From positions 1 through 36,251 of the forward strand of contig CAIMKX010000035.1 of assembly GCA_903842025.1 (NCBI GenBank): DNA of 36,251 nt, written 5' to 3'. Made by a program: the position numbers and the translations under genes. This DNA is from an uncultured bacterium (GTDB lineage: Bacteria > Patescibacteriota > Minisyncoccia > Phycocordibacterales > PALSA-1337). The notes beneath the pieces are model-generated. The model was not told the DNA's origin, ran no database searches, and saw only the letters and a list, made by a program, of their open reading frames with translations. This document shows positions 11,423-32,372 of this stretch, piece by piece (position 1 is the first letter of the stretch; each line of letters begins with the position of its first letter).

Positions 11423-11444
11423 GTTGAATTTTTTTGCATCAACC

Positions 11445-11527
11445 CTACCCCTTCTCGAAAGGCTCCAGCTCGACGATGAAGGTCGAGCCCTTGCCTTCCC
11501 CGGCCGACTCGGCGCGAATGGTGCCGT
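11445..11527 (-). pseudogene. Fragment of a histidine-kinase 3' end
   Basis: Reading the minus strand gives the last 26 codons of the neighbouring kinase: GTIRAES.GEGKGSTFIVEL then EPFEKG and stop, with a single residue changed. The similarity begins abruptly at 11527 and ends just past the stop. Together with the intact copy (12070-12155 region) it forms direct repeats on either side of the pemK-like gene. Confidence 0.88.
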
Positions 11528-11567: not shown

Positions 11568-11966
11568 ATGCCACATATAATTCAAAAAGATTTTGACGTC
11601 TGGAATATGAATAAGAAGCTTATCCACGCGGATAATGATAATAAGTTATACCGCACTAGAGATATCTGGTGGTGTTCTCTTGGCGTCAATATTGGCTTTG
11701 AAGAAGACGGGACTGGTAATACCGGAGAACGACCGGTAGTAATAGTCCGAGGTTTTAGCAAACAAGTCTGTCTGATTATGCCGCTAACCTCATCGGAAAA
11801 GAGTAATCCGTACTACATCTCCTTGGGAATAGTAAACGGCAGGAAAGCTTTTGTGATCACCTCACAGATTAGACTTATTGATACAAAACGACTTATCAAT
11901 AAGATCGGAGTTGTCGATCAGGATCTTTTTGAGACAATAAGAAAAGCCGCCAAAAACTTTTTTTGA
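11568..11966 (+). CDS. PemK/MazF-type endoribonuclease toxin-like protein
   Basis: The product (up to 132 aa) has the MazF/PemK barrel order: DIWWCSLGVNIGFEEDGTG, then GERPVVIVRGFSKQVCLIMPLTSS, a basic/aromatic strand region, and AFVITSQIRLIDTKRLINKIG with the conserved S-Q-x-R-x-x-D-x-x-R/K element. MazF toxins cut mRNA or tRNA at short motifs. No antitoxin gene precedes or follows it; the next gene upstream on this strand is unrelated. So it is either orphan, neutralised from elsewhere, or used for something other than a TA pair. It lies alone between two copies of a kinase 3' end. The terminator hairpin overlaps its stop codon. Confidence 0.85.
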   Translation: MPHIIQKDFDVWNMNKKLIHADNDNKLYRTRDIWWCSLGVNIGFEEDGTGNTGERPVVIVRGFSKQVCLIMPLTSSEKSNPYYISLGIVNGRKAFVITSQIRLIDTKRLINKIGVVDQDLFETIRKAAKNFF

Positions 11967-11974: not shown

Positions 11975-12072
11975 CTCTTTGTTTTATCTCCCTCTGAAGA
12001 GGGCGAGCCCGAAGGCATTTGTAGACATATGCTAACATGCCATGTTACAAAAATCAATCGAATTTTTAATCC

Positions 12073-13677
12073 CTACCCCTTCTCAAACGGCTCCAACTCG
12101 ACGATGAAGGTCGAGCCCTTGCCTTCCCCTTCCGACTCGGCGCGGATGGTGCCGTGGTGGGCGGAGATCATCTGTTTGGCGACATAGAGGCCGAGGCCGG
12201 TGCCGCGGATGTTGGTCTTGCTAGCGTTCTCGGCTCGTGAGAATTTCTGGAAGAGATGCGGCAGGGTCTCCGGGGCGATGCCCACGCCGGTGTCCTTGAT
12301 CTTGAAGACGAAGAGATTCTTGGTCCGGTCGCGGGTCAAGGTGGCGTCGATCGAGCCTTTGGGAGTGTATTTCAGTGAATTGTCGATGACATTGGCGAAG
12401 ACCTGCTTCAGTTTGTCCCGATCGGCTGTCACCCGATAATCGGCGACATTACCCTGCGCCGTAAATGTAAACTTGACGCCGGCCTTGTCGATGTTGGGCT
12501 TGAGCTCCGCCACCACGTCCTCGACCAGGCTCCGGAGATCGACTGTCTGGAAGGCGTACTTCATCGCCCCCAACTCGATCCGGCTGATGTTCAGGTAGTC
12601 ATTGACGATCGCCACCAGAGTATTGGTCGAATCATAAATCCGCTCCACCCCCTGCCTCGCCGCCTTCGGCAACTCCCCCATGTCCCCCTCCAAGAGCAAT
12701 GACGCATACCCCTTCATGGCCGTCAGTGGTCCCCTCAACTGATGTGTCGCGAACGAAACGAACTCCGACTTCTGCCTATCGAGCTCCACCAACCGACTGT
12801 TGGTCTTCTCGAGATCGGTGGCCAACGACTGGATCTGTTCGCGTTGAGAGATTTCGTTGTTTACGCCTTTAATGAGCAGAAAACTAAAAAATGCAACTAA
12901 TATTAATACAATCGCCTTGAGAATGAGCTCAATATTTGATTGAACGAAGAAAAGCTCGATCAAAAGTGTTACAACAATAACAACACTTATTATTTCAGTT
13001 AAAATTACTTTTATATTGAATAGATGGTACTTCGACATTGCTATAAAAAGCGAAACAACCATGATCAAAGAAAACATAGGTCCAAGCCAGGTATAATCAA
13101 AAATTCCAAAATAAGGGAAAATTAAATCTGGAATAATTGCCAACGAAGCAGCAATGATGGGTCCAGTTATTATAAATGCGACTTGCTTCTTTTCTAATTG
13201 ACTACGTGCTCTCTTATATTGAAGCAGGAGAAAAATGAAACCCGCCGAAAAATAAAAAATCATCAGTAAAGCATAGGCTATATATCCTCTATGTATTTCA
13301 TAAGTATATCCATTTGTCTCACCAATTATTAAATTCGTAAACAATATATAAAAAATGATGATTACGAAGGGTATAAAACTTACAATAATCGGCGTTTTAC
13401 TTATTATAAGTTTCTTTGGAAATTGTGTTGTAAATATTAGAAATAGAAATGAAATTAGAAGTGCTGAAGAGTGTGTAAGAACAACCCAATTGATTATTTG
13501 TCTAAATCCTTCCGTATAAAAAGCTATAATAGCTATACTCCATATAACGGATGAAAATGTAAACAAACCAAAAATAATATTGGCTGAAGATTTTATACCT
13601 CTGGAAAAAATGACCATGCTTAAAATAACCTCAAATACGATTACAATCGCAAGAACGCATTGAATTAAATTTATCAT
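12073..13677 (-). CDS. 7TM sensor histidine kinase (HK1)
   Basis: A 534-aa membrane histidine kinase. Residues 1-270 contain about eight hydrophobic segments of the HisKA_7TM type, with PYFGIFDYTWLGP near residue 188-200; then a short coiled coil (about 275-300) and a complete kinase core: H-box FATHQLRGPL (His312), N-box NVIDNSLKYT, G1 DTGVGIAPE, F-box LFQKFSRA, G2 GTGLGLYVAKQMI. It has no receiver domain, and no response regulator is nearby. Its start codon shares a base with the methyltransferase stop, so it ends a three-gene operon. Base composition changes sharply near 12870: the sensor part is AT-rich, the kinase core GC-rich, suggesting that sensor and kinase have different histories. 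Confidence 0.92.
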   Translation of the reverse strand: MINLIQCVLAIVIVFEVILSMVIFSRGIKSSANIIFGLFTFSSVIWSIAIIAFYTEGFRQIINWVVLTHSSALLISFLFLIFTTQFPKKLIISKTPIIVSFIPFVIIIFYILFTNLIIGETNGYTYEIHRGYIAYALLMIFYFSAGFIFLLLQYKRARSQLEKKQVAFIITGPIIAASLAIIPDLIFPYFGIFDYTWLGPMFSLIMVVSLFIAMSKYHLFNIKVILTEIISVVIVVTLLIELFFVQSNIELILKAIVLILVAFFSFLLIKGVNNEISQREQIQSLATDLEKTNSRLVELDRQKSEFVSFATHQLRGPLTAMKGYASLLLEGDMGELPKAARQGVERIYDSTNTLVAIVNDYLNISRIELGAMKYAFQTVDLRSLVEDVVAELKPNIDKAGVKFTFTAQGNVADYRVTADRDKLKQVFANVIDNSLKYTPKGSIDATLTRDRTKNLFVFKIKDTGVGIAPETLPHLFQKFSRAENASKTNIRGTGLGLYVAKQMISAHHGTIRAESEGEGKGSTFIVELEPFEKG

Positions 13678-14386: not shown

Positions 14387-15139
14387 TTATATCACTCTAA
14401 AAAAATGGAGTATCTTTGTATATATATTGGACTTTAGAATATATGTACTTTCATTTTCAGCTGTAAATAACAGAGAACAATTAATATGTTTGTACAAGTA
14501 ATTGCGGAAATCTGCTGAAGTAAAATATATCGGAATTACGGGATTGTTCCTTTGATTAAAATATTTTTTTAAAACGCCATCTTTAGGATAAATCTCCGTG
14601 TAATTTGCGATCTCTCCAACAGGCATATGACGTCTTTTCATTTTCTGATAAAGAGTTCTTTTTACAAACGAATATCCACCGGATAAATTATTCTTGAGCG
14701 CAAATGAAAGAATAGTATTAAGCAAAAATAGCATAACTAAACCACGTGGAAGAAATTCATTTTTTTCCTTATCAACAGGGATAATAATAAATCTTCCAAG
14801 CTCAAATCGTGAATCTCGTCTAATAAATTTCATTACCTCCGGTTCCTGAAAAGTGAAGTATTTTTCAGTTGGAAGCGGATCGTCTGTAATAACTCGGATA
14901 AAACCAATTATTTTCTGATCAATTTTAGCAATAAAATAATGGCATTTCCCCAATATATCGAAATTGTCTTTTTCCTTACCCTCAGGATATATTTGTGAAT
15001 CAATATAGCCGCGCTCTTTATAGACCGAATAACGCAATTCAAATGCCTCATTCAATTCCTGAGAATTATCTACTTCACCAAATGAGATAATGTTATTAGA
15101 ATCTCTAGCAGTAACTCTCAATGTAAAATACACTTTCAT
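14387..15139 (-). CDS. GNAT-fold N-acyl-amino-acid/autoinducer-synthase-like protein
   Basis: The 250-aa product has the layout of LuxI/FeeM-type acyl synthases: an N-terminal NEAFELRYSVYKERGYI (the residues just before the acyl-acceptor site), an acidic DNFDILGKCHYFIAKIDQKI, IIGFIRVITDDPLPTEKYF, then FELGRFIIIP where LuxI and FeeM have the conserved E-x-x-R-x-x-V element. FeeM-type enzymes join an acyl group from acyl carrier protein to an amino acid; LuxI to SAM. I cannot tell which, and a plain GNAT is possible. It heads an operon with a methyltransferase and a 7TM histidine kinase and is divergent from a second 7TM kinase. Confidence 0.72.
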   Translation of the reverse strand: MKVYFTLRVTARDSNNIISFGEVDNSQELNEAFELRYSVYKERGYIDSQIYPEGKEKDNFDILGKCHYFIAKIDQKIIGFIRVITDDPLPTEKYFTFQEPEVMKFIRRDSRFELGRFIIIPVDKEKNEFLPRGLVMLFLLNTILSFALKNNLSGGYSFVKRTLYQKMKRRHMPVGEIANYTEIYPKDGVLKKYFNQRNNPVIPIYFTSADFRNYLYKHINCSLLFTAENESTYILKSNIYTKILHFFRVI

Positions 15140-15190
15140 TGCAAAATTATATCATATAATGCATCCTTAACCTGGTATATAATATAAATA
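15139..15190. promoter_or_regulatory. Back-to-back leaderless promoters of the signalling module
   Basis: Minus strand: TGaTATAAT, six bases, ATG 15139. Plus strand: TATAAT (15178-15183), six bases, ATG 15190. Both promoters fit in 50 bp, so the synthase operon and HK2 share one control region. Confidence 0.65.
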
Positions 15191-16887
15191 TGGAGATTTC
15201 ATTATATTCTGCTCTAATATGGTCGACAGCCTCGCTTATTTTCAGTCTTGCATTAGTGGTTTTCTTGGGAAGCAGCGATAAGACTTCGCGCATTTTTAGC
15301 ATATGCGTTTTTATTGTTACATTATGGACAATAGATACTGGATTAGTCTTATCAGCTCCAAATAAACAACTAGCAGAAATATTTGTTAAAATTAGCGACG
15401 TATTCAGTAGTGCTGTAGCAACATCCTTTTTTTATTTTTTCTTAACATATCCAAGTGGTACGAAACCAAATAAGTTCATTACTATCTTTCTAGTATTTTA
15501 TCAATTATTCATTTCGTATTTATGTTTATTTACGAATAAAATTGTTGGGAATGCTTTCTACGTTGCGTCACCGGTAAAATGGGGTTGGGAGTTTGGGCAA
15601 CTATCTTTACTATTTGAAATATATTTCATAGGTCTTATTCTAATTGGTATCGTAATTTTACACAGAAAATATTTGTTCTATAAGGAACTATGTGTTAAAA
15701 AGAATCTCCTATTTATGATCTTAACAATTAATATTGGAGCTATTCCTCCAGTAGTAATGTGTGATATATTGCCACGCTTCGGATACTTTGATCTTGATTG
15801 GTTGGGACCAATAACTGGAATCGTCTGGGTATCCATCATCACCTACTCCATCCTCCGCTACCGCCAGATGAACGTTAAAGCCGTAGCCGCCGAGGTATTG
15901 GCGATCGCGATGTCGATAATATTGTTCATCAACATTTTCGTGGACATCTCGTCAGATCGGTGGATGAGCATCGTGACTTTCGGGGCATTCATAATCTTGG
16001 CCTATTATCTTATCAAGAACATCCTGCGCGAGGCCAAGCAGACGGAACAGTTAGCGGACTTGAACGCCAACTTGGCGGCCAAGGTGGCGGAGCAAACAGC
16101 CGAGGTACGCAGGTCTTACGATCTGGAGAAGAAGGCGCGGCGCGAATTGGAAAAACTAAATGAAACAAAGGACCAGTTCATCATGATCACCCAGCACCAT
16201 TTGCGGACGCCGGTCACCGGGATCCGGTGGGAATTGGAGGAGATACTGTCGGGCGCTCACGGTCCCCTTTCGGCGAAGCTTAAAAAAGCCTTGAGCGAGG
16301 CCCAGGGATCAACGGACAGATTGACAAAGATCGTCAACGACTTCCTGGCCATCACGGCCATCAAAGCCGGCGGCAATATCCTCAACCTAGCACCGGCCAG
16401 CTTGAGGCCGCTGGTCGAGGACATATTGAAGGAACTGCGGATCGACATTGAGAACAAGAAGATCTCGGTAGACTATCCGACGGACGAGAAAGATTGGCCG
16501 ACCTTGAACATTGACGCGAACAAAATGCGCGAAGCCCTGCTCATCATCATTGAGAATGCGATCAAATACAACGTCGCCGGCGGCCGAATCGCCATTCAAA
16601 CCCGCTTGGACAAGGAAGTGTTTGAGCTTAGCGTGACAGACAGCGGACTAGGGATCGGCCGCGAGGACATGGAGAAGATCTTCAGCAACCTCTTCCACCG
16701 CGGCGAACGCGCCCGCCAAACCAACCCCATCGGCATGGGCGTCGGCCTCTCGGTGGCTCGGGCCATCGTCAGTGCCCATCATGGAGAGCTGACATTGGAA
16801 TCTGAAGGCGAGGGTAAGGGAACGAAAGCGGTGGTGATGATAGGGGGGGTTGCAAAATTGGAGGTTAAATCATGTTGGAGATACTGA
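15190..16887 (+). CDS. 7TM sensor histidine kinase (HK2)
   Basis: A 565-aa membrane kinase built like HK1: about eight hydrophobic segments (residues 5-275) with the shared motif PRFGYFDLDWLGP (about 195-207), a coiled coil (280-325), H-box ITQHHLRTPV (His336), N-box IIENAIKYN, G1 DSGLGIGRE and G2 GMGVGLSVARAIV. The kinase core differs from that of HK1 and belongs to another subgroup. The change from AT-rich to GC-rich sequence falls near 15830, at the end of the sensor. The usual stop seems to be lost: the sequence matches the downstream fragment (20049-20234) up to GAGGTTAAAT and then diverges, adding SCWRY before TGA. Confidence 0.92.
   Translation: MEISLYSALIWSTASLIFSLALVVFLGSSDKTSRIFSICVFIVTLWTIDTGLVLSAPNKQLAEIFVKISDVFSSAVATSFFYFFLTYPSGTKPNKFITIFLVFYQLFISYLCLFTNKIVGNAFYVASPVKWGWEFGQLSLLFEIYFIGLILIGIVILHRKYLFYKELCVKKNLLFMILTINIGAIPPVVMCDILPRFGYFDLDWLGPITGIVWVSIITYSILRYRQMNVKAVAAEVLAIAMSIILFINIFVDISSDRWMSIVTFGAFIILAYYLIKNILREAKQTEQLADLNANLAAKVAEQTAEVRRSYDLEKKARRELEKLNETKDQFIMITQHHLRTPVTGIRWELEEILSGAHGPLSAKLKKALSEAQGSTDRLTKIVNDFLAITAIKAGGNILNLAPASLRPLVEDILKELRIDIENKKISVDYPTDEKDWPTLNIDANKMREALLIIIENAIKYNVAGGRIAIQTRLDKEVFELSVTDSGLGIGREDMEKIFSNLFHRGERARQTNPIGMGVGLSVARAIVSAHHGELTLESEGEGKGTKAVVMIGGVAKLEVKSCWRY
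16692..16872 (+). repeat. Direct repeat, upstream copy (HK2 3' end)
   Basis: This stretch from CTTCCACCGCGGCG to GGAGGTTAAAT is repeated in the same orientation at 20052-20232, with the highest identity over the GMGVGLSVARAIVSAHHGE region. The copies bracket 3.2 kb with the ABC-F gene and the candidate RiPP operon. Confidence 0.85.
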
Positions 16888-16896
16888 CTAAACATT

Positions 16897-18372
16897 TTAA
16901 AGCCGATATGTCTTGTGCTCTCCAATTCTATTCAAAAAATATCTGTCGTGTGTGACAACTATTACGGTTCCTTTAAATTGTTTGACGGCCTCTTCGAGAA
17001 AATCCAGCGCATAAATGTCCAAATGATTTGTCGGCTCATCCATTATGAGGCAGTTCGGTTTCTGAGCGATGAGTGAGGCTAAGATAAACCTGGATCTTTC
17101 GCCTGGGGACAATTCATTCCCGCTCTTTTTGATTTCCTCTTTTGTAATCCCAAGGTTATTTAATATCTTTCTGAATTCAGTCTCATCTAAACTATTAGAC
17201 TCTTTTATGCATCGTATAATCGCCTCATTTCCGAGCTCTGATTCTTGCGGCATATATCCAATATCGACGCGCGCGCCTCTTTTTATCTCACCTTTATCGC
17301 AAGTCATATCACCGATAATCATTCTCAAAAGAGTTGTCTTTCCTGCGCCATTGTCTCCTATGATGGCCACCTTGTCTCCAAACGATATGCTTAAATCAAT
17401 TGGTCCGATATTCTTGGTTCCAATTGTCTTTGTAATTCCTCTAATCTCGAACACTATATCTCCACTTCTTTCTCTTACCGGTATATCATAAGTAATAATC
17501 GGCCTTTCTTTTGGCTTATCGACTTTTTCAAGCATATCGATTTTCTCCCGAGCCAATTTTACGGATCTGCCGAGTGTTTTTCCCGACCAATCTTTCTGGT
17601 TTCCACGAGCCATTTTTTCATTATCTGTTCTTTTAGGTCCCTTTTCAGCGCGTGCAGACCACTGCTTCTTATCTCGGAGTGACCGTTCAAGCTGTCTTTT
17701 TTCTTCGATATAATCGTTGTATTTTTTCCATTCATTCTCAATCTTTTGTTTTCGCAAAGACATATATAGCGAAAATGGACCCGGATATGCAAAGCTTTTT
17801 CGACTATAAGCGTCAATTTCTACTATCTTATCAGCCATATTTTCCAGCAACTGACGATCGTGGGATACAATAATAAAAGCCGAGTCTTTTTTGTGTTTCA
17901 TTATGAAACCTTCCAGGAATTCCAATGCCGACGAATCCAGATTGTTTGTCGGTTCATCAAGAATATAGAGATCAAATGACGCATCTATGAGTTTAAGAAG
18001 ATTAATCTTGCTTTTCTCCCCACCACTAAGGTCACTGACTTTCTTTCCCATGATCTCCGGGGCAAGATTCAATTTATCAAGATCTTTAATGGCAGTTTCT
18101 GATAGGTAATCCGAAACAGCTAATTTTCTTTCTTCATCAGTCATTTCCTGCTCTAAATATGCGACCTTTACGCCTTTTGAGAAAACGATCGCTCCTTCGT
18201 CCTGGTTGATCTTTCCGGCAATAATCTTTAGAAGGGTAGATTTTCCTATGCCGTTTGGACCGACCAGGGCGATAACTTCTCCTCTTTGCACGGAAAAAGA
18301 AATGCCGCGAAGTATTTTATGCTCGCCAAAAGAAAATTCAACATGAGTACATGAAATAAGTGGGTTTTCCAT
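16897..18372 (-). CDS. ABC-F family ATPase (ribosome-associated)
   Basis: ABC-F proteins have two ABC domains and no membrane part; they act on the ribosomal E site as translation factors or protect it from antibiotics. Both domains are complete here: Walker A GPNGIGKST and GDNGAGKTT, signatures LSGGE and LSPGE, Walker B LYILDEPTNNLD and CLIMDEPTNHLD, and the H-switch residues in SHDR and THDR. The basic linker (KKQWSARAEKGPKR) is the arm that enters the ribosome. At 491 aa, with a short arm and no C-terminal coil, it resembles resistance-type (Lsa/Vga-like) members more than EttA or Uup, but this is a guess. Its start lies 88 bp from, and divergent to, the peptide gene at 18461, and it is convergent with HK2. 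Confidence 0.92.
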   Translation of the reverse strand: MENPLISCTHVEFSFGEHKILRGISFSVQRGEVIALVGPNGIGKSTLLKIIAGKINQDEGAIVFSKGVKVAYLEQEMTDEERKLAVSDYLSETAIKDLDKLNLAPEIMGKKVSDLSGGEKSKINLLKLIDASFDLYILDEPTNNLDSSALEFLEGFIMKHKKDSAFIIVSHDRQLLENMADKIVEIDAYSRKSFAYPGPFSLYMSLRKQKIENEWKKYNDYIEEKRQLERSLRDKKQWSARAEKGPKRTDNEKMARGNQKDWSGKTLGRSVKLAREKIDMLEKVDKPKERPIITYDIPVRERSGDIVFEIRGITKTIGTKNIGPIDLSISFGDKVAIIGDNGAGKTTLLRMIIGDMTCDKGEIKRGARVDIGYMPQESELGNEAIIRCIKESNSLDETEFRKILNNLGITKEEIKKSGNELSPGERSRFILASLIAQKPNCLIMDEPTNHLDIYALDFLEEAVKQFKGTVIVVTHDRYFLNRIGEHKTYRL

Positions 18373-18407
18373 GATTATGAATAATATCGTACCAGAATTA
18401 GTTGCTA

Positions 18408-18436
18408 TTTACAAATTGTTGATGGCTTGATATAGT
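18408..18436 (+). promoter_or_regulatory. Promoter of the candidate RiPP operon
   Basis: TTTACA, exactly 17 bases, then TATAGT with the extended TGa element. It predicts a leader of about 18 nt before ATG 18461. It is divergent from the ABC-F gene. Confidence 0.65.
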
Positions 18437-18460
18437 TTAAGTAGAAGAACAATCAAAATT

Positions 18461-18634
18461 ATGAAATCAAGCACATACAGTAAACCAGTATTGACGCGGA
18501 CCGGTTCGACGCCGGAGCCAGTGGAGGCGGGATGCTGCCTACGCAGTTGCGGAGGTGTACCGTCGCCACAAGGCGGATCATTCAAGAAAAAAAGTAAACT
18601 CGCGCGGAAAATCGAGGGTTTGCGGAAGACTTGA
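18461..18634 (+). CDS. Candidate RiPP precursor peptide, 57 aa
   Basis: This short frame lies between a consensus-like promoter and a radical SAM gene. The product begins MKSSTYSKPVLTRTGSTPEP, has a compact Cys/Gly segment EAGCCLRSCGGVPSPQGG (residues about 22-39) and a basic C-terminal tail with KKKSKLARK. Three Cys in CCxxxC, small residues around them, and a leader-like N-terminus are what one expects of a substrate for a peptide-modifying radical SAM enzyme. I know no named family that matches. A UUCG hairpin behind the gene would favour high expression of the peptide over the enzyme. No classical leader cleavage site (double Gly) can be fixed with confidence; GG occurs at 31-32 and 38-39. 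Confidence 0.6.
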   Translation: MKSSTYSKPVLTRTGSTPEPVEAGCCLRSCGGVPSPQGGSFKKKSKLARKIEGLRKT

Positions 18635-18654
18635 ATCAGGTCGCCGAAAACACA

Positions 18655-18677
18655 AGGGGCCACTTCGGTGAGCCCCT
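18655..18677 (+). promoter_or_regulatory. UUCG-capped intercistronic hairpin
   Basis: AGGGGC-CAC, loop TTCG, GTG-A-GCCCCT: nine pairs with one bulged A and a UUCG tetraloop, in the gap between peptide and enzyme genes. There is no long T-run, so it could be a processing/stability element or a weak attenuator. Confidence 0.6.
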
Positions 18678-18715
18678 AATTTGTTCATAGGCAACAATCA
18701 AGAAAAAGGATGATT

Positions 18716-19939
18716 ATGATAGTTAGAATACGAAAAGAAAACGACCAGTATTTGGCTTACTTTCTCGAAATGCGTCGCATGGTCGGAGTCAATCTGACTG
18801 GGGCAGAAATTATTGACCAATATTTCAATAGTGGTCTTGATGAAGCCTCTGTGGCCAAGAAGCTGGCGAAAACGCACAACATGTCTCTTGAACAGGCTAA
18901 AAAGGATACAGCCGCATTTTTGCAAATCATAGCAAAAGAGTTACAACCGACATCATTCAATAACACCGAGCAATCATCGGTATCCGCGCCGATTGGAGTT
19001 GAACTCGAGATCACGACAACATGCAATTTACGATGCAAACATTGCTTGCAGTCCGATTACAGTAAATTGTTCATGGCTATAGAGAAAGCCAAGCGGATAA
19101 TTGACACGCTCAAAAACGCTGGAGTGTTTGAAATCAGTATCATTGGCGGAGAGCCATTCGCTCATCCACAAGCGTGCGACTTCATCCGCTATGCGCATGA
19201 TTGCGGTCTTGCCGTCGGGTTAACCACGAACGGAAGCTTGATCACAAGCGAATATATACGCAAAATGTCCGGTTTGGACAACCTTTCAATAGCCGTGAGT
19301 ATCGATGGTATTGGTCGTGATCATGACTATATTCGAGGAAGTGGCATCTTCTCGAAGATTGACCAAATTATACGGCAGATGATCAATGTAGGCATTGAAG
19401 TCGAGGCAATGTTCACCATCACCTCATATAACATCGAAAAATACGGATCTGTCCTCGATTATTGCAATAATCTTGGAATAGTCTGCAACTTCAATCTATT
19501 CAAACCGTTCAAGGAGTCCCATAAGACACTTGTACCAGATCCGTTACGTTTCTTCAAATTAGTCAAAGAACTATTCGCAATGCGTCAGTCACGAAAATAC
19601 AAGATAGGATTATCTAACGCCGCCATTGTAAGTTATCTTCTTGGTATCCAAACGAGAGATGAGTGTCGGGCGGGACAATCTGGTTTAGTGATTGATGTAC
19701 GTGGACATATGTTGACCTGCCCTTCATTGCTGTACTGCGGCTATTACAAAGACACTGACTTTCCGCTTTTTGACGACAACTTTGTCGAAGTGTGGCAAAC
19801 ACATCCACTATTCACAGAGTTCAAGAAGAATGGACTCCACGGATGTCAAGTTAGATCGCTGATTTATTCTGGCGATGTACGGAAAGGCGATCCATACGAC
19901 CTTTCGGCATTTCGCAAATTTGCTGAGAGGAAAAGTTAA
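18716..19939 (+). CDS. Radical SAM peptide-modifying enzyme with N-terminal PqqD-like RRE
   Basis: A 407-aa enzyme. Residues 1-85 form a PqqD-like RiPP recognition element: VRIRKENDQYLAYFL, NLTGAEIIDQYFNSGLDEAS and EQAKKDTAAFLQIIAKEL. The radical SAM core follows, with CNLRCKHC (Cys103, 107, 110), the GGEPF motif and VSIDGIGRDHDYIRG. The C-terminus has Cys317, Cys335, Cys341 and Cys377 in GLVIDVRGHMLTCPSLLYCG and HGC, like a shortened SPASM/twitch auxiliary cluster. Such enzymes bind the leader and install thioether, C-C or epimer modifications. The start at 18716 has AAGG at the right distance; ATG 18710 is too close to it. It is the second gene of the operon with the 57-aa peptide and ends at a terminator. 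Confidence 0.88.
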   Translation: MIVRIRKENDQYLAYFLEMRRMVGVNLTGAEIIDQYFNSGLDEASVAKKLAKTHNMSLEQAKKDTAAFLQIIAKELQPTSFNNTEQSSVSAPIGVELEITTTCNLRCKHCLQSDYSKLFMAIEKAKRIIDTLKNAGVFEISIIGGEPFAHPQACDFIRYAHDCGLAVGLTTNGSLITSEYIRKMSGLDNLSIAVSIDGIGRDHDYIRGSGIFSKIDQIIRQMINVGIEVEAMFTITSYNIEKYGSVLDYCNNLGIVCNFNLFKPFKESHKTLVPDPLRFFKLVKELFAMRQSRKYKIGLSNAAIVSYLLGIQTRDECRAGQSGLVIDVRGHMLTCPSLLYCGYYKDTDFPLFDDNFVEVWQTHPLFTEFKKNGLHGCQVRSLIYSGDVRKGDPYDLSAFRKFAERKS

Positions 19940-19957
19940 TTGTTCCATCTAAACATG

Positions 19958-19991
19958 CCGACATGGTAAACCAACACCGTGTCGGTTTTTT
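19958..19991 (+). terminator. Terminator of the candidate RiPP operon
   Basis: Stem CCGACA / TGTCGG extended by GGT / ACC, followed by six T residues. Confidence 0.85.
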
Positions 19992-20048: not shown

Positions 20049-20234
20049 ATCATCTTCCACCGCGGCGAACGCGCCCGCCACCTGAACCCCATCGGCATGG
20101 GTGTCGGCCTCTCGGTGGCTAGAGCAATCGTCAGTGCCCATCATGGAGAGCTGACGCTGGAATCTGACGGCGAGGGTAAGGGGACAAAAGCGGTGGTGAG
20201 GGTAAGGGTGGATGGGTTTGGGGAGGTTAAATAG
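20049..20234 (+). pseudogene. Fragment of a histidine-kinase 3' end (HK2 type)
   Basis: It encodes FHRGERAR.LNPIGMGVGLS through VARAIVSAHHGELTLES.GEG to GTKAVV and a natural stop after GFGEVK; HK2 has the same residues with few changes. The N-terminal 500 residues are missing. It begins abruptly near 20052 and forms the downstream direct repeat to 16692-16872. An ATG happens to precede it in frame, but the product would be only a G2-box tail. Confidence 0.9.
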
Positions 20235-22020: not shown

Positions 22021-23020
22021 TTACACATCATCAACCCACGACACGTTCGGTTTAGGAGCACTAAAACCTGGAATATCGATAATTTTGATTTGCCACCCGT
22101 GTGTGATCACCACCAGACTATCCTTCCCAAGCTCCCTGACCGGCAACTCCCCATATTTGGGAAGCTCCGGCTGTTTCTCAATAACATCCGTGGGAAACGG
22201 AGTCAAAAGAAATGCCCGTTGAGGATAGAATCCATGACTGCCGTAGCCGACGATCTGACCTTTGTCGTTGATCGAGATCGCTATTTCAATATTCCAATCG
22301 GAGTTTTTGAAGATGAGATCATTGAGATCCGTCATCACTCCGCCGGAATACAGGAAGCCGTGAGCGATTCCCCGCTCAGAATCGATTATGGCTTGACCGA
22401 CTATTTGGCCGGACATGTTGATGCCGTAGGCTATCGAGGAGTACTTGCCTAGACTACCCAAGTTGGCCATCGTGCCATTCGAATACAGAAAGGTGTGCAA
22501 GACCTCGTCACCCTTCAAGGTTGAATTCCCCACAATGTCACCATTGTTGTTGATCTTATAAGCTGCGCTGTAAATTCCGCCCAAGGTGCCCAGATCTTTC
22601 ATTGAGCCATTGGAATAGAAAAACGCATGCCCATCGCTTTGACCCTTGATGTTCGAAATCCCGACCATTTGCCCGGAGTCATTGATACTGAACGCAATGC
22701 TGGAATTCCCTCCCAAAGTCCCGATATCCTTCATGGCGCCGTTCCAATACATCGAAGCACGGTTGTGACCAACGTAGAAACTAGTGCAAGCCATTTGTCC
22801 GTGGATATTTATCGCGTACGGCTCGAAGCTTGAGCCGATGTCTTTCATTGTCCCGTTGGAATACAGGAAAGCGTGCGAGACCTTATCGCCTACAATATTG
22901 GCCATACCAACGATATCGCCGAAGGCATTAATGTCATTGCCCACTCCGTAAGTGCCGCCGAAGGTTCCGACGTCTTTCATTGTTCCGTTTGAATAAACGT
23001 AAGCGTGTACATTATTTCTT
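22021..23020 (-). pseudogene. HAF-repeat region, 5' part of the split lipase gene, lacking its own start
   Basis: This frame has six HAF-type repeats of about 50 residues (HAFLYSNGTMKDLGTLGG pattern, followed each time by IN..G.IVG), then a short linker and the start of a hydrolase domain (SLVVITHGWQIKIIDIPGF). HAF repeats occur in exported proteins. The frame has no convincing start: it opens right behind the stop of a tiny upstream ORF and the only in-frame start is a TTG at 23070 within that ORF, in another frame. A signal peptide in this frame is missing. At the other end a duplicated GT dinucleotide (near 22022-22025) shifts the frame; removing it would give WVDDVKVIQGYLDN. I read it as a decaying 5'-truncated gene. 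Confidence 0.78.
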
Positions 23021-24087: not shown

Positions 24088-25281
24088 CTAACTCGAATTA
24101 TGCTCACCATTTTTCATAACGAGCATTGCACCTACGATAAGCAGGCTACCGGATACTATCCAGGCTACTGATATGCCGAAGCATTGCGCAATGATACCGC
24201 TGGCCAGAAGCCCGAATGCCCCTCCTATATGGGGCGCAATTGCACAGAATGAGGATATGGTCGCCCGCTCCGCTGAAGGTATTCTTTTTTGTAAATACCC
24301 ATCAGCAAGAGGAGGATATGTTCCGCGTCCCATTTCATGCAAGAAGAAAAACAACAGAATCATCGGAGTCTTGGAAACTGTTGCCGCAATTATTACAACA
24401 ATGCCGATTATGATCTGTATCCTTAGAATCAATACTTTTTCTCTTCCAAGAATTGATGAGTACCGAATTATTAGAGCTCCTAGAGCAGACGAACCCAAAA
24501 TTGCGGCGAATATCCATCCCAGCCAATATTCGTGAACTTGATGTCCCTTGAAATACGGTTGCCAATACATGTTCAGAGCCTGGATAGAAAATATTTGCAC
24601 AAACGTGGTCAGTAAGATAAATCTCACTGCTTTATCATTCATGCCATATTTTACGCTCGTGACAGTAATATCCTTCATTTTTTGAAGACCATTTTTCCAT
24701 GAAATGGAAACTCGGACAAAATAATCTTCTCGCATGACGGTTTGGGCAAATATCGTGAGAATAGCCAGACCGATTCCCCCGGCAATCCAGGGATAAGCCG
24801 GATTGTATAGAGAAATATACGAGCCGATTATCGCGCCGCCACAACCGCCAATTTGGCAAGCAACATTTTCTTTAGCGAATATTTTGGTGACGTCACCTTG
24901 ATAATCGATGTATTTGAGGCTGTCATACAGCCAGGCTCTGAAAGCTCCGCTTCGAAAAGTCGAACCGATCGCTCCGATAATTTCTGCCAATATGAATCCA
25001 GACAGTGTGTTCGAGCCGCCATAAGCAAACATGCTAAGTGACATGAGAGCGCAGGCGACAATGAAGGATCTTTTCCTGCCGAAGATATCGGCAAAGGCTC
25101 CAGTCGGTATCTCACAGACGAAGAGCGTAAAGAAGTAACAGGCGTTGACCATGTTGACCTCGAAGAGGTTGAGACCGTGCTTCATCAGGAACGTGACGTA
25201 GATCGCGCTGATGAATGATAACCCGACGGCGTTATAGAGCGCCGAGAGGACGATGTACTGACGGATAATTCTGTCTTGCAT
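24088..25281 (-). CDS. MFS transporter
   Basis: A 397-aa major facilitator with about 12 hydrophobic helices. The loop 2-3 signature is present as GAFADIFGRKRS (about residues 63-74) after CEIPTG, and a weaker repeat follows in the second half around IRYSSILGREK. FLHEMGRGTYPPLADGYLQKRIP is the loop before the last helices. This layout (EIPTGAFAD-x-FGRK) is common in the unnamed drug-efflux-like branch. Substrate unknown. TTGACA is visible upstream (plus-strand 25304-25315 region), but no clear -10 box. Confidence 0.9.
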   Translation of the reverse strand: MQDRIIRQYIVLSALYNAVGLSFISAIYVTFLMKHGLNLFEVNMVNACYFFTLFVCEIPTGAFADIFGRKRSFIVACALMSLSMFAYGGSNTLSGFILAEIIGAIGSTFRSGAFRAWLYDSLKYIDYQGDVTKIFAKENVACQIGGCGGAIIGSYISLYNPAYPWIAGGIGLAILTIFAQTVMREDYFVRVSISWKNGLQKMKDITVTSVKYGMNDKAVRFILLTTFVQIFSIQALNMYWQPYFKGHQVHEYWLGWIFAAILGSSALGALIIRYSSILGREKVLILRIQIIIGIVVIIAATVSKTPMILLFFFLHEMGRGTYPPLADGYLQKRIPSAERATISSFCAIAPHIGGAFGLLASGIIAQCFGISVAWIVSGSLLIVGAMLVMKNGEHNSS

Positions 25282-25345
25282 AAACTTTCTTCTTTCTTTT
25301 TATATTTTGTCAACGAACCAATTTCCCTGGATTACCGGCGTGATA

Positions 25346-25377
25346 AAAAATCCCGCTTTCGTCCAGTCGGGATTTTT
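25346..25377. terminator. Bidirectional hairpin terminator
   Basis: AAAAATCCCG / CGGGATTTTT with a 12-nt loop; A-run and T-run on the two sides. Confidence 0.8.
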
Positions 25378-25456
25378 CTAGTGATTTACCCGCAATAAGA
25401 AGAGATTAAGTAAATATGAGGATGTTAGAAATATCACGATTGGACGCAAACAAAAT

Positions 25457-25570
25457 ATGTCTGCAAATCTGAGCCACGGCCATATAGCCACCGAGGAATT
25501 TGGTGGAAACGGGCCACGTATTCGTGATATTAATGCAAGAATGCATGGGGATATAGTAGCAATTAAATAG
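25457..25570 (+). CDS. Possible 37-aa peptide ORF
   Basis: An ATG-started frame on the plus strand, MSANLSHGHIATEEFGGNGP followed by a RIRDINARMHGDIVAIK end, ends 8 nt inside the 3' end of the convergent fusion gene. There is no clear promoter or ribosome site. It is listed because small peptide substrates would be expected near graspetide-type maturation domains; it may be chance. Confidence 0.2.
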   Translation: MSANLSHGHIATEEFGGNGPRIRDINARMHGDIVAIK

Positions 25571-26363
25571 TGAGTATGTCAACTGCCAGCGGATATTTCT
25601 TGAGAAGTTCGTTAAACCTTTCATATGTCGGTTCGCAACCATAAATCTGGACAAATAACGCAGCAAAATCTTTTTGTGAAGAAGTGGATTTCAGTCCTTT
25701 TATGAGATCGAGCAATTTCTGTTTTCCAAATTCATTTACTAATATATGGACGACAAATCCAGATTCATCATAGACTCCCTTTCCTCCGTCTTCATAGAAA
25801 TCAAGAAATTTCTTGAAGCGATCTATCGGACGCTTCTCACCATTTTGTCCCGAAGTATATATGGCAACCCCCTCACAAAGCCAGATCGGTTTATTTTGAC
25901 CATCACAAAGAATCCGATAAAATGCGTGACTAATTTCATGTTTCAGTAATGAATAGTATTTCTCTGCTGAATATTTATGATTGCTCTCAGCATCAAAATT
26001 GTTCCGATCATATCCCTTCAAGGATGTCTGAAGAGACCAAAGAAATGCCGGGTACTCCTGCCGAAGAAAATCAATTTCTTGTTCGTCGTAGCCGACTGTC
26101 TGCTCTGCTATAGGCACGGGGTTTTCTGGACGCCTGTACCATATGCTTTTTATTTCCTCGACATTGAACAAAAAATCCAGTCTTCCTGAAGAGACCTCGA
26201 TGCCATCTACCGTTTCAAGGATACAAAGATCCATTCGATCCTCAAACAATGTGTTTATATCGATTCGAATGATTTTTTGGGCCAAATCTCTCAAATAGGA
26301 AACGACCCGGTCGACGCCCGGCTCGTTCTTATTACTCAAAATCAATATGTACTGTTTTTTCAT
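25563..26363 (-). CDS. MvdD-like pre-ATP-grasp domain fused to an HExxH (peptidase MA-like) domain
   Basis: Residues 1-115 look like the N-terminal domain of graspetide (microviridin-type) ATP-grasp ligases: YILILSNKNEPGVDRVVSYL, IDINTLF, and IKSIWYRRPENP (WYRRP at 75-79) with a following DFLRQEYPAFLWSLQTSL helix. The ATP-grasp part is absent. Instead, residues 125-266 resemble gluzincin metallopeptidases of the peptidase MA type: YYSLLKHEISHAFYRI (HEISH at 142-146) and PIWLCEGVAIY (Glu of CEG as third zinc ligand), then FVVHILVNEFGKQKLLDLIKG. The start is ATG 26363; an in-frame TTG at 26396 is less likely. I know of no family with this join, so it may be a chimera by deletion or a new domain architecture. 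Confidence 0.7.
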   Translation of the reverse strand: MKKQYILILSNKNEPGVDRVVSYLRDLAQKIIRIDINTLFEDRMDLCILETVDGIEVSSGRLDFLFNVEEIKSIWYRRPENPVPIAEQTVGYDEQEIDFLRQEYPAFLWSLQTSLKGYDRNNFDAESNHKYSAEKYYSLLKHEISHAFYRILCDGQNKPIWLCEGVAIYTSGQNGEKRPIDRFKKFLDFYEDGGKGVYDESGFVVHILVNEFGKQKLLDLIKGLKSTSSQKDFAALFVQIYGCEPTYERFNELLKKYPLAVDILTI

Positions 26364-26419
26364 GATTACACCATTCTTATATTTGTTGTTTTTCAATGTT
26401 TCTTGATATATAGTGTATC

Positions 26420-28751: not shown

Positions 28752-28907
28752 CTATGTTCCAGTCTGTTGCCGGGACGAATCGGTCGGTTTTGCCTCGACA
28801 ACATTTGAGTCTTTCGACTCAGTTTTCTCAGCTTTTTTGACCGGTTTTGTCTTGACACAGATTTCGGTGATCTTGTCACCGTCAAGAACTGCTTTACATT
28901 TTGACAT
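28752..28907 (-). CDS. 51-aa Lys-rich peptide coupled to a radical SAM gene
   Basis: MSKCKAVLDGDKITEICVKT followed by a Lys/Glu/Ser-rich tail (KPVKKAEKTESKDSNVVEAK then PTDSSRQQTGT). Its ATG lies 14 nt inside the upstream radical SAM gene and has a ribosome site (AAAGGTG, 5-6 nt away), so it is translationally coupled; a terminator follows. Two Cys (4 and 17). It could be the substrate of the two upstream enzymes, or a small binding protein: the N-terminus also faintly recalls CooT-like metal-binding peptides. Confidence 0.6.
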   Translation of the reverse strand: MSKCKAVLDGDKITEICVKTKPVKKAEKTESKDSNVVEAKPTDSSRQQTGT

Positions 28908-30381
28908 AACTCACCTTTCGTAGGGGTTTGTACTTGTTATCACCATCAGGGAAAGAAGAAATCGCATCGACTGCGCGATAAGTCTCGACTATTTCTTCCA
29001 ACAATTTCGGCGAAAGCTCGTCGATGATTTTCAGAACACGACATTCGAGTTCTGGAAGCAAACCGCGCTCTTCCAGTCTTCGAACATGCAGACAATCCAG
29101 ATGTAGTGCCCATACAATCGTTCCGTCTGCTTCCGTCTCAAGCCCAAGCGGGTAAAGACGACATGCCAAGGGGCGATCTTTGTAGATACTACATCTTCTA
29201 CTGTCTGTACACAACTGACTGCATGGAGGATACCGAATTGATAAATCGGGCACCCCTTGCGCAGTCACAGGAAACGAATGAATAAAGGTTGGCCCATTAT
29301 TCACTTGAACTAGCGGAACACCTTGTTCGTACAGATGCGCGGCTTCTTTTTTGAGTAGCCACACATAACCCATACAGTCAGGATCAGAACATTCACGACA
29401 ATCCTGCTCCATCCTCGGATAAAGTTCACCGAGAACATCGTATAGTTGCTCAAGAGTTTCGGTGAATGGTTTCTGCTCCGCAAACGCACACCCAGTGGCT
29501 ACGTTTCCGACAAATACCACATGTTTGCTCGCACGCACACTGTAGCAACATTTATGTTCATGTCCAGAATAAGTCGAAGCGGTACGCTCCGGCCATATCT
29601 CGAACACAAACGATCTAATATTGCCGATGGCGAGATCTGGCCGCCGTTGGAAAACTTCACTGCAAACATAGAGGTTTCCGTCGGCAGTCATGTATAGTGT
29701 CACGCCGTCGACCCAGCATTTCTCATCTGCATCAGAGAGAATTTCCCCGAATACATCGGAGGCCGTTTTGACAACCATTTCCGGTAAGTGCTTTTTCTGT
29801 TCCTCGGAGAGTTTAAGCTCATCCGAAAAATGATAGGCGCGACCGGCAATAGTTATCTCGTTGAAGTGAATGCTATTACAACCATACTCGACTGCGAGCT
29901 TGGCGAACGCGTTCAAGTGTTCTACGTTGATTGCTGAAATCGTAACGTAGAGAGTTGTCGAAATGCCCAACATTCGGCATTGCGTGAGAGTCTCAATGAT
30001 ATATTTGTAGCTTCCATCACCACGAATGGCGTCATTGGTTGCCTGATCTGCACCATCGAGACTGATTCCGAGATCAACGCCCAAGCGTTTGATCGTTTCC
30101 AAAGTTGCCTGTGGGAGCAAGGTGGCATTGGTTATTACAGACGACTTCAACCCCAATGCAACTGATTTTTCAAGCAAGACAAGGATGTCTGATCGGTTGA
30201 ACGGTTCTCCGCCGGTGAAGCAGATTCTGGAAACTCCTGCGGCTTGGAATGTCGCCAAAGCAACCATCGCTTCCTTGGTCGTAAGTTCATTTTCTCTCAC
30301 CGGACCAGACATCGGCAGACAGTGCTTGCAACCGAGATTGCACTTGTTGGTGATTTCCCAATGAATTTCACGAAGTTGCAT
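28894..30381 (-). CDS. Radical SAM/SPASM-like enzyme with C-terminal YkgJ-type Cys cluster
   Basis: A 495-aa protein. The radical SAM core begins at the N-terminus with CNLGCKHC (Cys14, 18, 21), then CFTGGEPFNRSD and ISLDGADQATNDAIRG. A SPASM-like part holds Cys222, Cys240 (GVTLYMTADGNLYVC), Cys278-279 and Cys298, followed by a small Cys motif CRECSDPDC (328-336). The C-terminal segment has CSQLCTDSRRCSIYKDRPLACRLYPL (Cys387, 391, 397, 407), the layout of the CxxCxxCC/YkgJ family. It begins inside the end of the other radical SAM gene (14-nt overlap) with a perfect AAAGGAGGT ribosome site. Substrate unknown; the 51-aa peptide is the local candidate. Confidence 0.85.
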   Translation of the reverse strand: MQLREIHWEITNKCNLGCKHCLPMSGPVRENELTTKEAMVALATFQAAGVSRICFTGGEPFNRSDILVLLEKSVALGLKSSVITNATLLPQATLETIKRLGVDLGISLDGADQATNDAIRGDGSYKYIIETLTQCRMLGISTTLYVTISAINVEHLNAFAKLAVEYGCNSIHFNEITIAGRAYHFSDELKLSEEQKKHLPEMVVKTASDVFGEILSDADEKCWVDGVTLYMTADGNLYVCSEVFQRRPDLAIGNIRSFVFEIWPERTASTYSGHEHKCCYSVRASKHVVFVGNVATGCAFAEQKPFTETLEQLYDVLGELYPRMEQDCRECSDPDCMGYVWLLKKEAAHLYEQGVPLVQVNNGPTFIHSFPVTAQGVPDLSIRYPPCSQLCTDSRRCSIYKDRPLACRLYPLGLETEADGTIVWALHLDCLHVRRLEERGLLPELECRVLKIIDELSPKLLEEIVETYRAVDAISSFPDGDNKYKPLRKVSYVKM

Positions 30382-31783
30382 GTTGTACCTCCTTTATGAG
30401 ATCAAGAGCATTCACCTGAAGCATCTTGCTCACAAATAACCGTATTTCGTGCTCATCGACTGATTCGGAAAATCGAGCGACAAGCTCACGTTCTCCAATC
30501 AATGATTCACTGATAATGGCCTGAGCCGTTTCCAGTGCCATCTCATCGAGTTTTACCGTCTGATACCGCGTAACCAGAAATTTCTCCGGGTAACGCGTTG
30601 TAAGTTTCATGAATCGGTTTGGTCGAAAGTTTCGGTAACTTTCCGGATATTCTTCAGCCATCTTACGATGCTTGACTTTTGTTACCAATTCAGCGACAGG
30701 CTTGGAAAGTCCGCGAACCGCATAGTCGATACAGAATCTGTCTGAGCAGTTCGAGTCAACTTTGCAGCCGCCCGTACAGTCAAGCAGTAGTTCGCACGAT
30801 TTACACGGCTCGCCGACCCAGGATAGATCACGGAAGATATCGAGTGCTGGCTTGTTCCAGATCGTCTCGATTGACTCTTTCATGACATTACCAAAAACAA
30901 GTTGCGACTGATTACACATCCGGAATTCACCTTTTGGGTTAATCGCGCAGAAGTATGTACCAACTCCGCAATTTGATGTGATACCCTCAGTGATCATCCG
31001 TTCATCCAAGCAGTACGGAATAGCTGTACCGAAACCGACCCTTCCATCAAAGATGGCAAAGTCGTGTTTGGCCTGAACTATTTGTCCCACAGCAATGTGA
31101 AACTGCTCGCGTGTCGGCTTCAAAGTATAGCCGCGGGAATTGACCGCGCCAATACCGCCATCTTCATAGCGGTCGATGTAAATCGACTCCATGCCGAGAC
31201 TTGCCGCAATGCCGATGATGTTATACATCTGATCATAATTGTAACCAGTTAGAACTGGTATGCACCGCACATCATGACCTTCGCCCACATAACACCTGAT
31301 TGTCTCAAGTGTTTTCTCAAAACTACCTGGCGACTGATTGAGAAATTCATGGGTTTTGGCATTCGCCCCATGAATCGGAACTCCGAAACAAGCAAGCTTG
31401 CTCGAGATACCATCTAACCGCTTTAGGCCATTAGTTACGATCGTAACGGATGAGGAAGGAGAGAGAAGCTCAATATATTCGTTGAGCTTCTCGACAGGCA
31501 GTAAGCTTGGCTCGCCACCGATGAGATATACATGCGGTATCTGACTCACCGCGATGGAACGAACAAGCTGTTCAATCGTTGATAGATCGCCCAGTTTTGC
31601 TCGTTCGGGATTGTAACAGAAGATACACTTCTCGTTGCACGCATATGTCAATTCGATATGACAGAGGTGCGGAATGGTATCGTGAAGAACGTATTTACCG
31701 TCCTCACGCCTTCCTTGTGAACGATAATTACAATGCACAGTCGTAACAGGCGACCATGCGTCATTTGATAGATTCGTTTTCAC
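30368..31783 (-). CDS. Radical SAM/SPASM enzyme with C-terminal PqqD-like segment
   Basis: A 471-aa enzyme with radical SAM motif CNEKCIFC (Cys49, 53, 56), LIGGEPSLLP, and a full SPASM region: NCGVGTYFCAINPKGEFRMC, then PCKSCELLLDCTGGCKVDSNC and FCIDY. The last 85 residues (RYQTVKLDEMALETAQAIIS, ERELVARFSESVDEHEIRLF, VSKMLQVNALDLI) resemble a PqqD/RRE-like winged helix, which in this family recognises leader peptides. GTG 31783 is the start, with AAGGAAAA upstream overlapping the end of the RNHCP gene, 4 nt away. This is typical of RiPP maturases, so its operon probably modifies a peptide. Confidence 0.88.
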   Translation of the reverse strand: MKTNLSNDAWSPVTTVHCNYRSQGRREDGKYVLHDTIPHLCHIELTYACNEKCIFCYNPERAKLGDLSTIEQLVRSIAVSQIPHVYLIGGEPSLLPVEKLNEYIELLSPSSSVTIVTNGLKRLDGISSKLACFGVPIHGANAKTHEFLNQSPGSFEKTLETIRCYVGEGHDVRCIPVLTGYNYDQMYNIIGIAASLGMESIYIDRYEDGGIGAVNSRGYTLKPTREQFHIAVGQIVQAKHDFAIFDGRVGFGTAIPYCLDERMITEGITSNCGVGTYFCAINPKGEFRMCNQSQLVFGNVMKESIETIWNKPALDIFRDLSWVGEPCKSCELLLDCTGGCKVDSNCSDRFCIDYAVRGLSKPVAELVTKVKHRKMAEEYPESYRNFRPNRFMKLTTRYPEKFLVTRYQTVKLDEMALETAQAIISESLIGERELVARFSESVDEHEIRLFVSKMLQVNALDLIKEVQHATS

Positions 31784-31787
31784 GAGG

Positions 31788-32138
31788 CTATTTTCCTTTC
31801 TTGTTAATTGTTGATTGCCGAGGACGGCTAGAGAGTTTAAGAATAGTGTCGAAGTTATCTTCCTCCGACTTTTTATTCCTTTTCTCGTATCCGCATTTTA
31901 CACACCGATGAACAATGATATACCCGCCATCTTTTGATTCGATGGCAATAGGTTCCATCATTCCGCCACACTTTGCCTTACGGTCGCCAGGATTGATGTC
32001 AACGTGTTTACTCCACAAACATCGGGGGCAGTGGTTAGTGTAACCGTTGCCTTTAACCTGTAAATCGCAGTTTTCGCACACGAAATTTTCGATTGTACGT
32101 TGGAATTGCCTTGTTGTGTTCATGTTTTTATCCATCAT
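31788..32138 (-). CDS. RNHCP domain protein
   Basis: A zinc-finger-like protein of the RNHCP family: FVCENCDLQV, YTNHCPRCLWSKHVDINPGDR, KCGGMMEPIA and IVHRCVKCGYEKRNK. Eight Cys/His positions could bind two zinc ions. The family name comes from its RNHCP motif (here TNHCP) and its role is unknown. The start is uncertain among ATG 32138, 32135 and 32123; the frame stays open upstream into the tRNA, which is not coding. It heads the protein part of the operon tRNA-RNHCP-rSAM-rSAM-peptide. Confidence 0.85.
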   Translation of the reverse strand: MMDKNMNTTRQFQRTIENFVCENCDLQVKGNGYTNHCPRCLWSKHVDINPGDRKAKCGGMMEPIAIESKDGGYIIVHRCVKCGYEKRNKKSEEDNFDTILKLSSRPRQSTINKKGK

Positions 32139-32200
32139 ATAGATTGTCAAAGATTTTCTGGCTATACAGTTACATAATTTATTAGAAAAGTCAATACTTG

Positions 32201-32272
32201 TTGCGGGGGCCGGAGTCGAACCGACATATCCGAGGTTATGAGCCTCGTGGGTTACCATTACCCTACCCCGCG
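32201..32272 (-). tRNA. Initiator tRNA-Met (CAT)
   Basis: The cloverleaf folds completely: acceptor CGCGGGG / CCCCGCA, D arm GGGT..ACCC, anticodon arm CGAGG-CTCATAA-CCTCG, T arm GTCGG-TTCGACT-CCGGC. The 1-72 pair is C-A, unpaired, which is the mark of bacterial initiator tRNA. In the anticodon stem two of the three conserved G-C pairs are present and the 29-41 pair is A-U. CCA is not encoded. The RNHCP gene follows 62 nt downstream. Confidence 0.93.
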
Positions 32273-32372
32273 ATACCTGACGGTTTGTCAAGTTTCCCAT
32301 AATATACTAATTATTACAAGCTTCTTATCCCCACATATTACATCCCTTCACTCTACCATAACCATCACTTCG

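Follow-up and report, generated by a model that had tools for sequence, protein, structure and literature searches.

What a short, cysteine-containing reading frame, a radical S-adenosylmethionine (SAM) gene and a divergent gene for an ABC-F ATPase do side by side in a genome of 0.95 Mb (99% complete) is the question raised by contig CAIMKX010000035.1 of assembly GCA_903842025.1, from an uncultured bacterium of the Patescibacteriota, in whose phylum sample small genomes are the norm. The whole stretch of 36,251 nt that was analysed is referred to as the window. A first-pass annotation had read the three genes as a candidate operon for a ribosomally synthesised and post-translationally modified peptide (RiPP) with self-protection by the ABC-F protein, and the parts that it listed (a promoter-like element, a 57-amino-acid (aa) open reading frame (ORF) with the segment EAGCCLRSCGG, a UUCG hairpin, the radical SAM gene, a terminator, and the ABC-F gene 88 bp away) are all found in their places. 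Comparison of five such loci bears out the 57-aa frame as a genuine precursor gene that has been conserved, and the conserved pair of precursor and enzyme would, judging from the sequences, almost certainly make a chemically modified peptide. That the locus is a two-gene RiPP pathway accompanied by an immunity gene seems to us the probable answer, with considerable room for doubt. The genes concerned are:

16897..18372, minus strand: 491-aa ABC-F ATPase, ARE-like (ribosome-protection type), with a proposed role in self-protection (NF000355 match, accessory clade, 169-aa linker)
18461..18634, plus strand: 57-aa precursor with leader motif YSKPVL (residues 6-11), conserved block PEPVEAGCCLRSCGG (residues 18-32) and variable tail (homologs, codon-position bias, weak DUF5972 match)
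18716..19939, plus strand: radical SAM maturase, 407 aa (its ORF opens at 18710), with N-terminal PqqD domain, i.e. a RiPP recognition element (RRE), CxxxCxxC core, and auxiliary region of CX12GX4C plus one Cys (domain and profile matches, alignment)

Conservation of the precursor gene

Roughly a thousand related small genomes were sampled, among which five loci carry the enzyme at 38-48% identity. The genus, family and phylum samples gave no enzyme homologs beyond background; the order-level sample contained one full-length homolog (47-48% identical, in genome G642), and a profile of two sequences, run on the class, added three further loci (in G847, G1037 and G840). In all five, an ORF of 50-58 aa lies directly upstream of the enzyme gene. 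The one in G642 (58 aa, MDKHKQYQKPEVTCKGANPEPVEAGCCLQSCGGSPG...) matches the MKSSTYSKPVLTRTGSTPEPVEAGCCLRSCGGVPS... of the window, and the others read IKKYKKPVVVSPGYSPEPVEAGCCLTSCGGSPG... in G847, MKKTPKILKKTSAKDYQESGCCFRSCGGSPC... in G1037 and, in diverged form, MNTISQKPKILKKNSAKKHPEFGFCFRGHGGKS... in G840. Together they give the consensus (Y)xKPx[LV]...GCC[LF]xSCGG, of which the Tyr is absent from two precursors and the core is replaced by GFCFRGHGG in the diverged member. A search in six frames of the 1.12 Mb of fetched DNA with the pattern G[CF]C[LF..]x[SGTA]xGG (or CC[LFIVM]x[SGTA]C[GA]G) returned only the five precursors, each directly 5' of the enzyme.

Within a conserved block of 15 codons, the differences at codon positions 1, 2 and 3 number 0, 1 and 11 between the window and G642, 1, 1 and 7 between the window and G847, and 1, 1 and 9 between G642 and G847. 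This concentration at third positions reflects constraint on the protein, and the core of the precursor is therefore under purifying selection. Both the recurrence of a similar small ORF upstream of enzyme homologs and purifying selection on the 57-aa frame had been named beforehand as decisive for the RiPP interpretation; the former is present for every homolog of at least 38% identity, and the latter is found in the core. The earlier remark that no RiPP family with such a precursor comes to mind holds as well, as none of the NCBIfam models matches any of the five precursors, even at E=10. Pfam DUF5972 (PF19397) matches the leader of the window precursor weakly (E=0.009, 15.9 bits against a cut-off of 22.6), and as a search tool it was uninformative, giving noise-level matches across the phylum and in control genomes.

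Searches further afield returned distant relatives. A single-query search with the enzyme against genome contigs, plasmids and viral contigs found distant radical SAM proteins only, and profile searches of the viral contigs found distant enzyme homologs only (21-38% identity over partial stretches). The PVEAGCC pattern had 40 chance matches in viral contigs, none of them within a comparable ORF. No GCCxxxCGG pattern occurs in the fetched flanks of the more distant radical SAM matches of the order-level search and of G333, the remaining distant matches having been checked by pattern scan only. Rfam reported nothing but tRNAs in the five loci.

The radical SAM enzyme

Alignment of the five enzymes leaves as invariant the CxxxCxxC motif, C318-X12-G331-X4-C336, and C378, while C258 varies. 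Pfam detects a SPASM domain in four of the five, but the tail lacks the CX2CX5CX3C block and is thus twitch-like rather than full SPASM, with the CX9-15GX4C arrangement and a further Cys in place. Given that C258 varies and that the tail has nothing further of the SPASM Cys block, the enzyme is expected to hold one auxiliary cluster through three protein Cys ligands. As for the N-terminal PqqD-like RRE of the first-pass annotation, it is clear in the G642 homolog (34.2 bits, E=3.2e-8, over the cut-off), although the window protein itself stays just below threshold (22.7 bits against 23.4); the domain is detected in three of the five enzymes.

By profile, the closest solved structures are those of peptide maturases, namely the sactisynthase SkfB (1.1e-26), 5v1q (4.5e-21) and 5wgg (4.1e-14), and the best NCBIfam match is the mycofactocin maturase TIGR03962 (E=1.3e-30, 106.8 bits against a cut-off of 265). 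The enzyme lies far below the cut-offs of all curated NCBIfam maturase families (e.g. StsB with 61 of 625 bits, and SkfB with 55 of 300). From these matches, it appears to be a radical SAM peptide maturase in kind that belongs to no curated maturase family. An AlphaFold model computed from one sequence had a pLDDT of 51, too poor for a fold search.

Protection genes beside the peptide unit

The link between peptide and ABC-F protein had originally rested on position in the window alone. It now recurs: an ABC-F gene adjoins the peptide unit at three of the five loci. In the window and in G642 it is divergent from the unit, and in G1037 it follows the enzyme gene in the same orientation, starting after 54 bp. 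In G847 its place is taken by a convergent gene, the next one along, for an Erm-type 23S rRNA methyltransferase (229.1 bits against a cut-off of 212, versus 158.7 against 171 for the KsgA model; best Protein Data Bank match ErmC'), which brings the loci with a protection gene to four of five. When the window is left out as the source of the hypothesis, the chance of at least two of the other four loci having an ABC-F gene within two genes is ~1.6e-4. The G847 contig also carries two near-identical copies of a ~95-nt block (L102 7391-7491 and 10326-10435) that holds a TTGACA element, a strong ribosome-binding site and a small ORF, MSICYSSLTKT...; one copy is upstream of the precursor, and the other follows the Erm gene, 36 nt before the end of the contig. 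Leader-peptide control is a possible role for this duplicated block.

All three unit-linked ABC-F proteins exceed the NF000355 cut-off of 380 bits (407 for that of the window, 399 and 428 for the others). A tree of 45 proteins groups them in a single accessory clade (99/98), which lies on the side of Vga, Msr and Lsa (93/87) and is separate from both a conserved clade of 17 members and E. coli EttA, Uup, YbiT and YheS. Their interdomain linkers measure 166-169 aa (169 in the window), compared to 142-143 aa in E. coli Uup, YbiT and YheS and 172-176 aa in Vga, Msr and Lsa. Forty related genomes contain 32 ABC-F-like genes, and only 10 of these genomes have one over the NF000355 cut-off. The genomes of the window and of G1037 have exactly one ABC-F gene each at E<=1e-60, i.e. 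the one beside the peptide unit. The possibility that the protein is a conserved vertical factor of the EttA type, raised at the outset as fatal to the self-protection idea, is thus ruled out for the window by tree placement and linker length, and its being the only ABC-F protein of the genome at that threshold agrees with this.

Within the accessory clade, the window protein and those of G642 and G1037 belong to different subclades (both 100/99), the G642 protein being only 32% identical to that of the window, whereas the enzyme tree joins the window and G642, if weakly (85/90). This disagreement suggests that the ABC-F gene was acquired by repeated recruitment or replacement, and not inherited as one cluster. 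Members of the window subclade also occur where there is no peptide unit, namely in G005 and G031; in the latter, the ABC-F gene adjoins genes for a major facilitator superfamily (MFS) protein and a peptidase, whose homologs lie at 24088-26396 in the window.

Proposed pathway

The steps below are given in order of falling certainty. The RRE would grip the YxKP leader and present the core to the enzyme, after which the radical cluster and the one auxiliary cluster, bound by the three invariant Cys, would alter the Cys-rich core; thioether cross-links are the most likely outcome by analogy with sactisynthases of the SkfB type. Because the unit holds no protease or exporter, release and export of the core would fall to general functions of the cell. 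The product would then bind the large ribosomal subunit near the peptidyl-transferase centre or the exit tunnel, and the neighbouring ABC-F protein or Erm would protect the producer. ARE-type ABC-F proteins and Erm methylation protect the same region of the large subunit. That two unrelated ribosome-protection genes alternate beside one pathway is what points to a 50S-targeting product with self-protection.

We thus infer a peptide that is modified, inhibits ribosomes and is countered by the ABC-F protein, the last of these steps being carried by what is already established about ABC-F and Erm function. In our reading the peptide is probably a ribosome inhibitor of a new kind. By its sequences, the unit would represent a new RRE/radical-SAM RiPP family whose precursor has no NCBIfam match. 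A fuller version, which in our estimation could equally well hold or fail, is that of an undescribed radical-SAM RiPP family of bacteria with ultra-small genomes, in which the GCC[LF]xSCGG peptide, once matured, blocks the large subunit where both ABC-F and Erm confer resistance, and in which the protection genes (ABC-F or Erm) are interchangeable beside a minimal precursor-enzyme pair. A link between ABC-F, RiPP and self-resistance is not described in PMC12724294.

If true, a ribosome inhibitor made by a radical SAM enzyme would open a chemically new way to a drug site that is already validated (cf. PMC7136475). Little is known of antibiotic production by bacteria with reduced genomes, which are presumably host-dependent; graspetides were reported in the candidate phyla radiation by a survey of 2022, which left their role open (PMC8939145). 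In the present case the neighbouring genes predict the target, while enzyme and substrate are two small genes, and producer immunity would give the accessory ABC-F clade of these bacteria a natural role.

Alternative explanations

Several findings weigh against a ribosome-targeting pathway with its own immunity gene. Five loci are a small sample and the Erm adjacency is a single case; ABC-F proteins of the same clade occur without the peptide unit (e.g. in G031, G005 and G308); the unit contains neither an exporter nor a leader protease; and in G840 the precursor-enzyme pair sits between pheS and pheT (L103 6010-10558), has a core without two of the three Cys, and is found in a genome that has no ABC-F gene at E<=1e-60 and no protection gene near the unit. 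The lack of exporter and protease and the pheS-pheT site are the strongest unexplained points. A rival reading is that of a genuine radical-SAM RiPP of another role (a signal, a cofactor-like product in the manner of pyrroloquinoline quinone (PQQ) or mycofactocin, or a membrane-active bacteriocin), with ABC-F and Erm genes merely sharing mobile accessory regions. Such a role would fit the mycofactocin maturase being the closest NCBIfam model, albeit far below its cut-off, as well as the same-clade ABC-F genes without a unit, the one unit in five without a nearby protection gene, and the direct repeats that bracket the segment in the window, as in mobile cassettes. Hitch-hiking, however, would not be expected to place 50S-protection genes of two unrelated mechanisms beside four of the five units, and no PQQ or mycofactocin partner genes are nearby; we regard this explanation as rather unlikely, if a serious contender.

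Alternatively, the product of the short ORF could control the resistance gene, as a leader peptide that works by translation arrest or attenuation. Genes of the erm kind and some for ABC-F proteins are classic targets of such control, and the separate small ORF in the duplicated block upstream of the G847 precursor would be in keeping with this. But the ORF is divergent from the ABC-F gene in the window and in G642 instead of upstream of it, and the Erm gene of G847 is convergent; moreover, what accompanies the ORF at every locus is the enzyme with its RRE, and this includes G840, which has neither an ABC-F nor an Erm gene close to the unit. For the ABC-F gene, orientation and constant partner rule out a leader or arrest peptide, and we give the idea as a whole a very slim chance. 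Nearly negligible is the probability that the 57-aa frame arose by chance and that the enzyme has another substrate: the window copy has no canonical Shine-Dalgarno sequence and no more than a weak Pfam match, but the ORF accompanies all five enzymes, its core being the same and its divergence lying at synonymous sites, the ORFs of G642 and G847 have good ribosome-binding sites, and conservation in five loci rules out chance.

Relation to known systems

The unit resembles the sactipeptide and ranthipeptide systems (maturases SkfB, StsB, CteB and AlbA) in that RRE, radical SAM domain and a tail that would bind an Fe-S cluster are united in a single enzyme whose substrate is a short peptide with Cys residues, and SkfB is the best sequence match among solved structures. 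It differs in an enzyme that is far below the cut-offs and whose tail keeps only CX12GX4C and one Cys, and in a GCC[LF]xSCGG core that matches no curated precursor family. With MftC and the PQQ/heme radical SAM group it shares the best NCBIfam match (TIGR03962), but at 106.8 of 265 bits, without an MftA-like precursor, MftB or other mft neighbours, and with the RRE fused to the enzyme and not separate; cut-off and missing partner genes rule out membership of the mycofactocin pathway.

YxxPxL is the recognition motif of lasso leaders (PMC10368454), and W/Y/LxxP-type sequences are recognised by several RRE groups, including the sactipeptide RRE StsC (PMC12710340). The YSKPVLTRTG of the window fits both. 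The leaders nevertheless differ from lasso/DUF5972 leaders, as the DUF5972 match is weak, two of five precursors lack the Tyr, and neither an asparagine-synthetase-like cyclase nor a B protease occurs in the window or in the contexts of the four other loci, which rules out lasso peptides.

The unit-linked ABC-F proteins share with the ARE proteins Vga, Msr, Lsa and VmlR an NF000355 score over the cut-off, an expanded linker and the same side of the tree, but form a separate clade of small-genome bacteria and are 25-32% identical to the clinical proteins. As to translation-targeting RiPPs (azol(in)e peptides, thiopeptides and bottromycins), the ribosome would be the common target, as proposed here; those reviewed are of azole/YcaO type and others, and the review mentions neither radical SAM enzymes nor sactipeptides (PMC7136475).

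Layout, expression signals and mobility

From left to right, the ABC-F gene on the minus strand is followed by the divergent gap (88 bp between the two start codons) with the promoter-like element, the 57-aa ORF, the hairpin, the radical SAM gene and the terminator. The remaining features are:

16691..16872, plus strand: left direct-repeat copy, the 3' end of the histidine kinase gene 15190-16887
18408..18436, plus strand: sigma-70-like candidate promoter TTTACA-17-TATAGT of the peptide operon (consensus match only)
~18655..18678, plus strand: UUCG-loop hairpin between precursor and enzyme genes (fold z=-2.85)
19957..19986, plus strand: putative intrinsic terminator ending the operon, an 11-pair stem followed by T
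20053..20233, plus strand: right direct-repeat copy, a kinase 3'-end fragment (86% over 180 bp)

The promoter-like element matches 10 of 12 consensus positions, and such sites by themselves are no better than chance (3 in 1.76 kb versus 4.4 expected in shuffles). For the enzyme, the ATG at 18716 is preferred over the opening of the ORF at 18710, since it lies 7 nt after AAAAAGG and agrees with the start of the homologs (MxVKIRKE). G642 likewise has a GC-rich hairpin between the precursor and enzyme genes (z=-6.5), as does G847 when read by eye. Hairpins in this position are a common means of making the peptide in excess of its enzyme, and here too a partial terminator or expression divider is probable.

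In the window, the two repeat copies bracket exactly the ABC-F, peptide and enzyme genes, which may therefore have entered together. The junction sits in the stop codon of the kinase, and the left copy has no stop codon there. The 3' end of a second histidine kinase gene is duplicated too (12071-12155 and 11443-11527), bracketing a PemK-like toxin gene (11568-11966); the two repeat pairs are 86-93% identical and each flanks foreign-looking genes, so that kinase 3' ends look like insertion points for cassettes. No kinase-3'-end repeats surround the units of G642 and G1037, and that of G847 has a different repeat, namely the leader block. Within the kinase gene 15190-16887, the GC content rises from ~31% to 55% at ~15850, between the seven-transmembrane sensor half and the kinase half, which suggests a spliced gene.

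Other loci in the window

At 25563-26396, an ORF begins with an MvdD-like pre-ATP-grasp part and ends with a peptidase-MA part, the G031 homolog consisting of the peptidase part alone; by its domains, it could be what is left of a graspetide gene. Positions 28894-32300 contain a tandem pair of SPASM radical SAM genes and a gene with an RNHCP domain, whose ORF is overlapped by a tRNA-Met (32200-32272); to go by its domain content, this is possibly another peptide-modification locus. An acyltransferase resembling FeeM and autoinducer synthases, unusual in so small a genome, is encoded at 14387-15139, and six direct repeats of 41 nt, spaced ~132 nt apart, lie at 22322-23007 inside a repeat protein with a DUF3466 match.

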